Source: a virus
Virus record (IMG/VR): IMGVR_UViG_3300037264_009318
Coordinates: 1-33,971 of that record
Reading direction: 5' to 3' (one strand)
Length of the DNA: 33,971 bases
In this document: positions 2,849 through 32,691 of the stretch, one piece after another
How the letters are laid out: the number at the start of each line of letters is the position of its first letter
Numbering within the stretch: position 1 is the first letter of the stretch
Translations under genes and position numbers: made by a program
The notes under the pieces: generated by a model
What the model saw: the letters and a program-made list of their open reading frames with translations, nothing else
Databases searched by the model: none
Told to the model about the DNA's origin: nothing

Positions 2849-3466
2849 ATGTCCCTCCGCGAGATGCTCCGGATCGCCCGGGCCGCGCTGGCCGACCCGC
2901 GCATCCCCGCGGAGATCGAGAAGGCCCTCGCGCTGGGCGAGACGGGCGACGTCGCCGCGCTCCGGACCGTCGAGATCTGGCTCTTGGCCGAGGAGCTGCC
3001 GGGCCTCCCGGCGAGCGTCGCGGCCCACCTCGTTGATGCCGTCGCCGGCGATGTTGATGCCGTCGTCGCCGTCGGCGCCGTCGAGAGCTGGCTCGCCGCC
3101 TCGGAACCCATGGCCGCCTCCACCGCCGTTCGCGCCGAGGTGCGACGCCGCCTCGAGGCCGCGCGCGCCGCTCACCGGCCGATCGAGGAGCAGCGGCGTG
3201 ACCTCGCTCGCGACGTCGTGAGCTTCGCCCGCGAGTCGATGGTCGCCGCTCGGCAGAGCCAGGACCCCCGGCTCCTGGCCTCGGCGCTCGCCGCCACGAC
3301 GCGAGCGTTCGACGTGCTCGAGCCGGTCCACGACGACTACGGCATCGCCGAGCCACCGCGCTTCGTCGTCGAGCTCACGTACCCGGAGCGCCCGGCCCCC
3401 GAATGCCTGCCGCAGTCCCTGTCTGGCGATTCAAGCCCGCTGCCCGCCGACCCGGCTCCAGGCTGA
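2849..3466 (+). CDS. candidate small terminase subunit / packaging protein
   Basis: From the ATG at 2849 the protein has 205 residues. The frame is also open from a GTG at 2780, but those 23 residues are low in complexity, so the later start is preferred; no clear Shine-Dalgarno decides. The protein is almost wholly helical and rich in Ala, Arg and Glu, with a charged coiled-coil-like centre (about residues 105-150) and a short Pro-rich end. It overlaps the large terminase start by 64 bases. That position is where small terminase subunits usually lie, and size and helicity fit a ring-forming TerS that recognises DNA and feeds the motor. No family motif was recognised, so the call rests mainly on context. 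The HTH protein just upstream is the competing candidate. Confidence 0.5.
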   Translation: MSLREMLRIARAALADPRIPAEIEKALALGETGDVAALRTVEIWLLAEELPGLPASVAAHLVDAVAGDVDAVVAVGAVESWLAASEPMAASTAVRAEVRRRLEAARAAHRPIEEQRRDLARDVVSFARESMVAARQSQDPRLLASALAATTRAFDVLEPVHDDYGIAEPPRFVVELTYPERPAPECLPQSLSGDSSPLPADPAPG

Positions 3467-5250
3467 CCTGGTTCCAGAGCTGGCTCGTCACGCGAGCTCG
3501 CCGCAACGTCGTCGCCGTCGCCGCGCGGCGCTCGGGAAAGACGGTCGGCTGTCGAGGGAAGTTGATCTCCGCCTGTCTCGACTCGGGCCCGGGCGACGTC
3601 GGCTACATGGCCCCGACGCTGGGCCAGGCGAAGCGCCTGCTCTGGCGACCGCTGATGCAGGACCTGCGCGATCCCGCCGCGCGCGCCTTCATCACCGGCA
3701 AGCCCAACCACTCCGAGCTCTTCGTCGAGTTCCGCACCGGCGTTCGGCTCTACCTCTACAGCGCCGAGGCCTACGAGCGCGTCCGCGGCGACGGCTTCAA
3801 GCTCTTCGTCACCGACGAGACCGACGATCCCCTCTTCAGCGACGAGGTGTTCGACGAGGCGATCCACCCGGCGCTCTCGGACAACCTCGGCGAGCTCTAC
3901 CAGCTCGGCACGCCGAAGGGCCGTGGACGCCTCTACCGCGAGTACCGGAAGGGGCAGCCATCGAGCCCTGCGGAGGTTCGCGATCCCGACTACGACTCGA
4001 TCCAGGTGACCTCGCTCGAAGCGGGGATCATCCCCCGGAGCGAGATCGAGCGGGCGCGCAGGACGCGTCCCTCGCGGGCGTTCGCGCAGGAGTACTTGGC
4101 GACGTTCAACGCGCCCGTCGGGCTCGTGTACGACGCGTGGAACGAGGCTCGGCACGTCGTCAACGCGTCGAAGGTCCCGGCGCTCGACGAGCTCGACGAG
4201 GTGATCGTCGGCGTCGACTGGGGCACCGCCAAGCGCGGCTCGATGGTCGTCCTCGGGCTCGACCGTGTGTGGATCCCCCCCTCGGAGGACTACGACGGCT
4301 GCGAGCTGCCCCGCGTATGGCTCCTCGAGGAGCACAGCGAGGCGGGCCTCGCGTATGCCGACCGCTCAGGTGATCGGCCCGGCTGGTGGTCGATCGGGCG
4401 CGACATCCAGAGGCGCTGGCGCCCGACGCGCTGGTACTGCGATCCCGCCGGCGGCAGCGAGGAGGAGACCGAGGCGGAGGCTGCGGGCTACCTGCTGCAG
4501 CTGCAGCGCGCGCTCCACCAGGTCGACAACCGGGTGCAGGTCCTGCCGGGGGACAACCGCGTCTCGCTCGGCATCTCGGCGGTGCAGGGCTTCCTGCACT
4601 ACGACGACGTGCTGCTCGAGCCCCCGAGGCTCTTCGTGCTCGACACCTGCACGACGACGATCGGCGAGTTCAACGGCTACCGGTGGACGAGCAACCGCAA
4701 CCTCGAGGGCGAGTACGAGGAGCGGCCGGTGAAGCAGAACGATCACTGTGTGGCCGCCGGCGCGATGGTCGCCACCGCATCCGGTGATGTGCCGATTGAG
4801 GACGTCCAGGCGGGGATGCTCGCCCTCACGAGGGATGGGTATCGACCCATCGCGGCGGCGTGGATGGCGAGCTTCTCCGCTCCAACCCTCCTGCTCACGA
4901 CGTCCGATGGGCGCACGTTGGAGGCGACTGCAGAGCACCGCATCTGGTCGGAGGAACGCGGATGGATTCGACTGGACGAGCTGCGCCCCGGGGACCTGCT
5001 TCGCGTGTGCGGAGAGACGTGCGCGAGGACACCGATCGGGTCGTGTACAGCTGTGGAAAGCGTCACGCCCACCGGGCGAAGCGTGCCGGTCTATGACCTA
5101 ACGGTCGACGGGGCTCACGAGTTCTTCGCGAACCGCATCCTCGTCCACAACTGCCTCGACGCCTGCAGGTACGCGATCTTTTCGCACTTCTACCAGCGCC
5201 GGCGCCGGCGCGGACGCAACGAGGCGAGCTTCGAAGGGCGGGGAGGATGA
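3403..5250 (+). CDS. terL: terminase large subunit containing a mini-intein
   Basis: The DNA-packaging motor: an ATPase that threads phage DNA through the portal, and a nuclease that cuts concatemers. Visible in the 615-residue precursor are Walker A AARRSGKT (residues 40-47), Walker B LFVTDE with Asp138-Glu139, and coupling motif GTPKG (169-173). The RNase H-like nuclease domain begins at VGVDWG (Asp272), with a second acidic residue in the CDPAGG motif (Asp347). The third acidic motif (D-H-C-L-D-A) is split by an intein at residues 449-583; Asp586 follows the junction. After splicing the protein would be 480 residues, a normal TerL length. It overlaps the upstream candidate TerS gene and its stop overlaps a tiny downstream ORF. 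The ATPase/nuclease assignment is firm; activity requires splicing. Confidence 0.95.
   Translation: MPAAVPVWRFKPAARRPGSRLTWFQSWLVTRARRNVVAVAARRSGKTVGCRGKLISACLDSGPGDVGYMAPTLGQAKRLLWRPLMQDLRDPAARAFITGKPNHSELFVEFRTGVRLYLYSAEAYERVRGDGFKLFVTDETDDPLFSDEVFDEAIHPALSDNLGELYQLGTPKGRGRLYREYRKGQPSSPAEVRDPDYDSIQVTSLEAGIIPRSEIERARRTRPSRAFAQEYLATFNAPVGLVYDAWNEARHVVNASKVPALDELDEVIVGVDWGTAKRGSMVVLGLDRVWIPPSEDYDGCELPRVWLLEEHSEAGLAYADRSGDRPGWWSIGRDIQRRWRPTRWYCDPAGGSEEETEAEAAGYLLQLQRALHQVDNRVQVLPGDNRVSLGISAVQGFLHYDDVLLEPPRLFVLDTCTTTIGEFNGYRWTSNRNLEGEYEERPVKQNDHCVAAGAMVATASGDVPIEDVQAGMLALTRDGYRPIAAAWMASFSAPTLLLTTSDGRTLEATAEHRIWSEERGWIRLDELRPGDLLRVCGETCARTPIGSCTAVESVTPTGRSVPVYDLTVDGAHEFFANRILVHNCLDACRYAIFSHFYQRRRRRGRNEASFEGRGG
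4747..5151 (+). other. mini-intein (Hint domain) inside TerL
   Basis: A 135-residue in-frame insertion with the hallmarks of a class 1 protein-splicing element. It has Cys1 at the N-junction (residue 449 of the precursor), a block B T-x-x-H (Thr509/His512), block F around VYDLTVDGAHEFFANR, block G ending V-H-N (His582, Asn583), and Cys584 as the +1 residue. All residues needed for splicing are visible. At this length there is no room for a homing endonuclease, so it is a minimal intein. Base composition looks somewhat less GC-rich than the flanks. It interrupts the third catalytic acidic motif of the TerL nuclease, a site typical of inteins, which favour conserved active sites. Removing it joins N-D-H to C-L-D-A. 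Confidence 0.93.
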
Positions 5251-30907: not shown

Positions 30908-31384
30908 ATGCCCACTGTTCGCGACTACATCGGCAAAGTCTCGTTGGTCGCTGCAAAGCACGCCATCTATTGCACCTGGCAGGTGACGGTGGGCACCTCG
31001 ACCACGCCGCTGGTCCCCGCGTGGGCGCCTGGGGTCAACAAGGTGATCGGACAGGTCGTCACCAACGATACTCCGCTCAGGATGTATCGCTGCATCGACC
31101 CTGGCACGACGGATGTCTCTGGAGGGCCGACAGGCACAGCTACGGACATCACCGACGCCGGCGCTCACTGGGCCTACGTCGAGGAGTTCCAAGGTGGCTT
31201 CGAGATCACCAACATGGACGCGGTCAACGCGATTTACGTGTCGCCTTCGAGCGGCGGTACGATCGGCACGGGTGACGGTGTGCCGCGCGAGCAGAGCAAG
31301 GAATTCCCCTTCACCGATCCCTCTCAGTTCCACCTCATCGGCGCGGCCGCCAACCTGCAGGTCACGGTTCGGGCGCGTCTGTGA
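30908..31384 (+). CDS. small beta-rich tail protein
   Basis: 158 residues, with AGAGGA ahead of the ATG. Beta-rich throughout: VSLVAAKHAIYCTWQVTVG, AWAPGVNKVIGQVV, LRMYRCIDPG and THWAYVEE-like segments (WAYVEEFQGGFEITNM). The aromatic/Gly pattern W-A-P-G-V-x-x-x-x-G-x-V-V resembles small phage tail or carbohydrate-binding beta modules, but no family is certain. It overlaps the SGNH hydrolase start by four bases (GTGA), so the two may act as a unit on the host surface. Confidence 0.6.
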   Translation: MPTVRDYIGKVSLVAAKHAIYCTWQVTVGTSTTPLVPAWAPGVNKVIGQVVTNDTPLRMYRCIDPGTTDVSGGPTGTATDITDAGAHWAYVEEFQGGFEITNMDAVNAIYVSPSSGGTIGTGDGVPREQSKEFPFTDPSQFHLIGAAANLQVTVRARL

Positions 31385-32691
31385 GCCGCGGACCTCGCTG
31401 GACGCCACGGCGGCTCGGCGCCGGCGGCACCTCCTACTGGCTGCGCCCCTCGCGCGTCGTCGGTGGGTTGCTCGTGCCCGATCCATCCCTCACGCTCGTG
31501 AGCGGGAATATCTCGGCCGCCGCCGTCGGCGGCAAAACGCTCGTCCAGGCGACGGCGAGCAAGAGGCCAGTGACCTCGGCGGTCGACCTGCTCGACGGCC
31601 GTGGCGGCTACCAGACCACGACGGCTGCCCTGACCGAGCTCATGAGCTCAGATGGAGGTGTCACCGGGGGCGCGGATCATGCCGCCTGGTGGATTGGGCG
31701 GCACGGCACGACGGACAACTACCGCGGCCTCGTGACATTCGGACCCGCGGGCACTGCGAGCACGGTCGGAGCGCAGGGTACGAATCACTGGGGCGGTGGT
31801 CCCGGGTTCGTGCAGCCGAGCGCCGCCGGCGACGAGGGCGAGCACCTGTTCTTCGTTGAGTACGCTGGCGGAAAGAAGAGGCTGTTCGTCGATGACGATC
31901 GGACTGGGACCTACGAAGCAACGAGCACCTACGCGGTAGGAGACGCGCGCTTCGGGATCGGTCCAGCGTTCTCCGGGGCGGTGGCCAGCGGCACGATCCG
32001 CGAAGCGGGCTGGATGCTCTACGCGCCGTCCGCGAGCGAGAGGCGCGCGCTCGCGCACTACGCGGCCACGGAGTATCCGTCTGCGATCGCCAACGACAAC
32101 GCGCTGCTTGCTATCGGCGATAGCCAGTCAAAGGGCTTTGGGACGACCGCATCTCCGGCAAACTGGCCCTCACGGCTGGCGGCGCTCGGGCTGCTCACGT
32201 TCCCGTTCACCATCCTGATGGAGGCCACCGTGGCCCACACCACGACGCTCGTGCTCGCCGACTTCGGCCCGTTCGTGGTGCGGTTCAGTCGGTGCCGAAA
32301 GCGCTGCATCGCCACCGTTTGGGCCGGGACGAACGATCTGTTCTTCGGCGCCACCGCGGCCTCGACGTGGACCAACCTGATGGCGATCTGCGCCGCGCTG
32401 CGAGCGGCCGGCTGGTACGTGATCCTCTTCACGGTGTTGCCTCGTACGGAGCCTGGTACCGCCCCGACCTACGAGTCGGAGCGCGGGTTGCTCAATCCAC
32501 TGATCCTCGGCGCGGTCGCTGCGGGGGTCGCGGACGACGTTTATCACGTCGCGGCCAAGTTCCCGGACTCGACGAACGGCGCGTACTACCAGCTCGCCGG
32601 CCCCGCCGGCGTGCACCTCAACCAGACGGCGAACGACATGATCGCCGTCGACATCGCCGCAAAGGCGAACGCCGTCGCGATGGCCGCGTGA
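31381..32691 (+). CDS. SGNH/GDSL-type hydrolase tail protein (depolymerase-like)
   Basis: 436 residues from a GTG coupled to the previous stop. The first ~230 residues are beta-rich and read like a concanavalin/LamG-type binding domain (e.g. WWIGRHGTTDNYRGLVTFG). The C-terminal 200 residues are an SGNH hydrolase: block I I-G-D-S with Ser248, an intermediate segment, block III A-G-T-N-D (Gly316, Asn318, Asp319), and block V G-V-H-L-N with His412. The residue three before that His, normally the catalytic Asp of D-x-x-H, is Ala409. Such tail enzymes remove acyl groups from surface glycans or cut capsule. Catalysis by a Ser-His pair is possible but must be shown. Confidence 0.82.
   Translation: MSRGPRWTPRRLGAGGTSYWLRPSRVVGGLLVPDPSLTLVSGNISAAAVGGKTLVQATASKRPVTSAVDLLDGRGGYQTTTAALTELMSSDGGVTGGADHAAWWIGRHGTTDNYRGLVTFGPAGTASTVGAQGTNHWGGGPGFVQPSAAGDEGEHLFFVEYAGGKKRLFVDDDRTGTYEATSTYAVGDARFGIGPAFSGAVASGTIREAGWMLYAPSASERRALAHYAATEYPSAIANDNALLAIGDSQSKGFGTTASPANWPSRLAALGLLTFPFTILMEATVAHTTTLVLADFGPFVVRFSRCRKRCIATVWAGTNDLFFGATAASTWTNLMAICAALRAAGWYVILFTVLPRTEPGTAPTYESERGLLNPLILGAVAAGVADDVYHVAAKFPDSTNGAYYQLAGPAGVHLNQTANDMIAVDIAAKANAVAMAA

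Follow-up and report, generated by a model that had tools for sequence, protein, structure and literature searches.

Class 1 inteins carry Cys or Ser at position 1, a T-x-x-H motif in block B, a terminal His-Asn pair and Cys, Ser or Thr at the +1 position, whereas in class 3 inteins a W-C-T triplet replaces Cys1. BIL domains occupy variable sites in their hosts and usually come without a +1 nucleophile. Fractured genes, in which an endonuclease gene lies between the halves of a split intein, were reportedly described by Dassa and colleagues in 2009. Inteins of the phage large terminase subunit (TerL) are known from mycobacteriophages, at seven sites, none of them outside the N-terminal ATPase domain (Kelley et al. 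2016, PMC5050341). A 2025 report on a phage methylase, that of ShiLan, describes an out-of-frame HNH insertion with zinc ribbons that leaves the frame of the host gene open (PMC11855218). The citing passages of that report point to a 2025 preprint (Gosselin et al., bioRxiv 2025.01.02.630785) that deals with inteins of actinobacteriophages and their ‘non-canonical architecture’, and to Gorbalenya 1998 for overlapping frames. The nested architecture that we find in TerL inteins may already have been described.

The window analysed here, which makes up one IMG/VR virus record, is 33,971 bases long, has 68% G+C and holds the gene set of a contractile-tailed phage, with portal, major head protein, tail sheath and Mu-like baseplate proteins. 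A GDSL-type lipase/acylhydrolase domain protein is encoded at 31381-32691, close to where the tail genes end. The earlier note on this DNA had guessed at a Myxococcota host, for which our analysis offers no support. An open reading frame at 3403..5250 (+ strand) encodes a TerL precursor of 615 residues, 480 without its intein, that matches the PHROG terminase large subunit with an E-value of 1.1e-37; intein-less relatives are 466-481 residues long. The N-extein (3403..4746, + strand) comprises the ATPase domain and most of the nuclease, ends in RPVKQNDH448 and shares 69-79% identity with intein-less TerLs across its length.

TerL codons 449-583 (4747..5151, + strand) form a class 1 mini-intein of 135 residues, delimited by profiles, alignment and predicted fold exactly where the earlier note had placed it. 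The splicing residues listed in that note are all present in the sequence, each on the + strand: the Cys1 nucleophile (4747..4749), the block B motif T61-A-E-H64 (4927..4938), which is invariant in the intein relatives, the penultimate His134 with the terminal Asn135 (5146..5151), and the +1 Cys584 (5152..5154), the first residue of the C-extein, where Cys is likewise found in the intein-less L002, L003/L006 and L023. Possession of Cys1 rules out a class 3 intein. Matches to Pfam Intein_splicing (E 1.2e-12) and NCBIfam intein_Cterm both exceed the curated cut-offs, and among solved structures the best sequence match is 4o1r, the Npu DnaB intein (E 2.3e-10). An AlphaFold2 model, for which the window intein was aligned with ten homologous mini-inteins, shows a complete Hint (HINT/horseshoe) fold at a mean pLDDT of 94.3, with only loop residues 92-94 falling below 50. 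When the model was compared with the PDB in Foldseek, inteins came out on top, namely Ssp DnaB M86 (6frg, E 9e-11), gp41-1 (6qaz, TM 0.85/0.89, 1.5 Å) and Npu DnaB. A self-splicing intron, that is, a catalytic RNA, was also considered for the insertion and is ruled out by the lack of any Rfam match up to E 1 and by a reading frame that is open throughout.

The intein lies between His448 and Cys584, two residues ahead of Asp586 (5158..5160, + strand), which it separates from His448. Asp586 is invariant in seven TerLs and lines up with VKQNDHQLDADRY in 5oe8, a solved terminase (motif QLDADRY); from established knowledge of TerL structures we take it to be the third metal ligand of the RuvC-like nuclease. 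The first acidic residue, Asp272 (VGVDWGT, 4216..4218, + strand), is invariant in the TerL alignment and presumably catalytic, as we know it from RuvC-like TerL nucleases. Asp347 (WYCDPAGG, 4441..4443, + strand), also invariant, is probably the second. A model of the whole precursor reached a pLDDT of only 41.7 and was set aside. Comparison with intein-less relatives, as the earlier note had proposed, makes the position of the insertion exact. Six distinct TerLs from viral contigs align over the full length of the window protein at 68-78% identity, and the 135-residue insertion is the sole large difference. Their empty sites read NDH|CLDG, NDH|CLDA, EDH|AIDS, NDH|EMDA, NDH|AMDA and MDH|CLDA, which bears out the earlier claim that the third acidic motif of the nuclease is split as NDH|CLDA. 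Within the intein GC3 is 0.79, against 0.92 in the N-extein, as expected of a later arrival.

The same comparison bears on whether the stretch is an intein at all. A BIL structure occurs among the weaker sequence and fold matches, and one could picture a BIL domain, some other Hint domain that cleaves without splicing, or even a genuine conserved domain of TerL. We consider this most improbable, because a +1 Cys is present, the insertion is exact and lies in a conserved active site, the nearest fold matches are true inteins and the stretch is wholly absent from the six relatives. Taken together, Cys1, T-x-x-H, His-Asn, the +1 Cys, the Hint fold and an in-frame insertion at a conserved site are those of a class 1 intein. 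Because its motifs are complete, its fold intact and its insertion exact, we infer that this intein splices. The 615-residue precursor would be inactive as a nuclease until the intein is removed, and excision through the Cys1, His-Asn and +1 Cys pathway would yield a TerL of 480 residues.

Relatives of the intein were sought with a query of four sequences. One of its rows, L009, had a few residues altered toward the other rows; the altered row served only in the choice of search words, and every match was confirmed against the true window sequence. Scanning for conserved intein stretches gave 80 loci, and in most of them complete inteins could be delimited with N-half and C-half profiles. One relative, L094, happens to stem from a contig that is likewise 33,971 bases long; it has no sequence in common with the window, and we take the equal length as coincidence. 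By PHROG, 53 N-exteins are mainly terminase large subunits, 33 of which match phrog_2, the general TerL family; a few others are ribonucleotide reductases. About 38 distinct inteins with a short C-extein sit in the TerL third-Asp motif, at one of three offsets: H|xxD (that of the window intein), Hx|D, or after D-A/S. Further members of the family are located in Walker B. Judged by its homologous splicing domain and its location in the third-Asp motif, the window intein belongs to a broad phage intein clade that has repeatedly entered this motif. Mini-inteins of 121-157 residues are common in the clade, so that the small size of the window intein is no argument for conditional splicing, as the earlier note had wondered. 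In the TerL of L009 (IMGVR_UViG_3300027983_000118) three inteins coexist, in the N-terminal part, in the first Asp motif (VDWGG|C) and in the third. In L036 (2658-4043) two inteins stand in tandem in Walker B, four extein residues (CDEI) apart, the first with a nested HNH and the second a mini-intein.

A distinctive feature of the clade is where it keeps its endonuclease. In 34 distinct phage inteins (among L007-L010, L012, L013, L015 and L036-L106), an HNH endonuclease is encoded in the +2 frame of the intein, within the linker between the splicing halves, typically with zinc ribbons downstream of the HNH. A six-frame search placed every HNH match that overlaps an intein in +2 and never in frame, and six of the nested HNHs match Pfam HNH_3 at E 1e-13 to 3e-20. 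Nearly all begin with an ATG or GTG of their own, about 200-305 bases into the intein. Their stops are formed by, or lie directly after, the block F Tyr-Asp codons, and for most the stop is a TGA, drawn from TAT GAx, 58 bases before the intein end. Selection on the two frames can be separated. Across 16 pairs of relatives, which are not independent of one another, differences at intein codon positions 1/2/3 number 424/364/760 in the splicing half, with the peak at position 3, and 1001/1664/1168 in the linker, with the peak at position 2, which is position 3 of the HNH frame. The switch implies that the linker is selected as an HNH gene, its intein frame being merely open. In three deposited records that we checked (TJE1, Highwayman and LS06), the HNH is unannotated inside terL. 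We see in this family a warning for annotation, as nested endonuclease genes go unmarked in these records and the linker resembles a meaningless low-complexity protein.

The layout extends beyond HNH. A helicase intein of Xanthomonas phage FoX3 (L014, 2569-3366) encodes a LAGLIDADG endonuclease, likewise in +2 (Pfam LAGLIDADG_2, E 1e-21), which indicates that nesting is not restricted to one endonuclease type. In Vibrio phage 1.245.O (L110, NC_055736.1 4534-8763), the intein at the TerL third-Asp site is split (1699-2686): Int-N ends at a stop at 1834, the HNH gene at 1699-2430 overlaps both sides, and Int-C with the C-extein forms a separate open reading frame (2345-2686) annotated as a hint domain protein. 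The arrangement resembles a nested cassette that became a fractured gene.

No homing endonuclease was detected in the window intein or elsewhere in the window, and the HNH profile has no significant match there, in agreement with the earlier note. How the window intein came to lack one is best approached through its relatives. L076 (325 residues, with HNH) and L030 (144 residues) share the same site and have nearly identical splicing domains; in L030 the HNH core is gone and the HNH tail is retained in the +2 frame, with a junction near a shared CCGG that was read by eye, as automatic alignment puts the gap in the wrong place. Zinc-ribbon tails in +2 are also kept by L027, L028, L029, L048 and L070. 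On sequence grounds these other mini-inteins of the clade are clear deletion products that retain zinc-ribbon relics. The middle of the intein is exchanged by recombination as well. The TerL N-exteins of L011 (132 residues, a mini-intein) and L072 (345 residues, HNH-carrying) are 99% identical, and their intein N-halves are nearly identical up to residue 48, after which the middles differ.

In place of the +2-frame HNH and zinc-ribbon gene of its relatives, the window intein has only a short candidate relic of the last zinc ribbon at 5046..5096 (+ strand, frame +2), reading YSCGKRHAHRAKRAGL and closing with a TGA stop from the block F Tyr-Asp codons. It resembles the HNH tails SCGQRSQNRSRRASL, also followed by a stop (L010), and SCGKRDFWRSRSG (L012). 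The stretch, 16 residues long, was noticed by eye and only afterwards tested, the reference being random synonymous recodings of its residues. A profile of nested-HNH tails gives it 12.6 bits and the recodings 0.5 on average (SD 2.7); with TerL or intein codon usage 5 in 10,000 recodings reach 12.6 bits, and with uniform usage 26 in 10,000. HNH-less controls, ribonucleotide reductase inteins included, reached 2.4 bits at best, with the exception of the mini-intein L073 (7.4 bits, 0.0015), and the full-length HNH profile did not detect the window relic (-1 bit). We consider the +2-frame stretch a likely, if not certain, relic of an HNH tail. A frame-0 loop, CGETCARTPIGSC, was also entertained as a zinc-ribbon remnant and dropped, as no profile supports it.

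The tree of splicing domains groups the window intein with L031 (92/86) and intersperses mini and full forms, with deep forks unresolved; the position of the window intein in it is not firm, and taken alone it does not distinguish loss from ancestral absence. A primordial mini-intein, never associated with an endonuclease and spread by recombination involving larger DNA segments or in trans through a free-standing HNH, would fit this unresolved direction and the absence of an HNH from the window, and free-standing HNH genes of the same family do adjoin terminase genes in three other phages. We nevertheless regard this history as unlikely, as the window intein itself carries the +2-frame relic and there are clear deletion products among the other mini-inteins. 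Read from sequence, the window intein most likely lost its homing gene. Across the family, the disappearance of homing is directly legible in the DNA, since the vanished gene and the splicing domain that survives lie in separate frames.

In the model that we propose, the intein was copied into an empty TerL gene that an HNH endonuclease had cut at the conserved motif. An internal deletion in the window copy, or in an ancestor of it, would then have removed the HNH core, so that a mini-intein remained that is competent to splice and can no longer home. It would persist because it splices, exact loss is rare and an inexact deletion would destroy TerL. All in all, a canonical class 1 mini-intein in TerL, descended from an HNH-carrying clade, deprived of its HNH core and splicing to a 480-residue TerL, is in our judgement likely.

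Two interpretations had been offered in the earlier note, a decayed relic and a conditional timing of DNA cleavage. The first is supported by the series from full intein through partial deletion to mini-intein and by the relic in the window. The second would have the intein kept as a switch, triggered by a cue such as redox state, sensed through Cys1 or the +1 Cys together with Cys89, Cys93 and Cys101 of the loop, with DNA being cleaved only from packaging onward. It is tempting to entertain, since the catalytic motif is interrupted and splicing would have to precede nuclease activity, the loop holds these three extra cysteines, and some inteins do splice conditionally (cited in PMC5050341). 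However, close relatives with TerLs 68-78% identical to that of the window do without the intein, one and the same site holds now a mini-intein, now a full, HNH-carrying form, and the analysis turned up no conserved regulatory feature. The loop cysteines vary among relatives and lie in or near the single low-confidence segment of the model. A role as a switch therefore strikes us as quite improbable, and a decayed relic remains the interpretation that we favor.

Beyond the single locus, the relatives outline a nested architecture in which the endonuclease, HNH or LAGLIDADG, is a separate +2-frame gene inside the intein, takes its stop from block F codons, gives rise to mini-inteins by decay and, in a single lineage, has become split; the window intein would be one of its deletion products. 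We think it fairly probable that this holds as a whole, centered on the TerL nuclease motif and possibly bridging contiguous, mini and split inteins. The family is of more interest than the window intein, as it forms a natural series of nested HNH, partial deletion, mini-intein and split intein. The window intein is ordinary, and out-of-frame HNH insertions have already been published (PMC11855218). It adds another selfish element lodged in the most conserved and indispensable part of a phage enzyme, here the TerL nuclease and not the ATPase domain.

Compared with known systems, the window intein has the fold, Cys1, T-x-x-H, His-Asn and +1 nucleophile of the DnaB-type class 1 mini-inteins (Npu DnaB, 4o1r; Ssp DnaB, 1mi8 and 6frg) and of phage-like gp41-1, and like them it has no endonuclease; it differs in its host protein, TerL, and in its site, the third-Asp motif of the nuclease. 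With the mycobacteriophage TerL inteins (PMC5050341) it shares residence in a phage large terminase at a functional motif, but it lies in the nuclease domain. Its nearest counterparts are the third-Asp-site inteins of Tetrasphaera phage TJE1, Acinetobacter phage Highwayman, Rhodobacteraceae phage LS06, the archaeal-virus vir335 and many IMG/VR contigs, which have a homologous splicing domain of about 35-50% identity in the same motif. The intein of vir335 is a mini-intein like that of the window, whereas most of the others contain a nested +2-frame HNH that the window intein lacks. The ShiLan insertion (PMC11855218) comes without a splicing domain, while in the relatives of the window intein the HNH resides inside a true intein. 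Among fractured genes and split inteins, finally, the TerL intein of Vibrio phage 1.245.O is such a split form around an HNH gene, and the window intein is contiguous and free of HNH.
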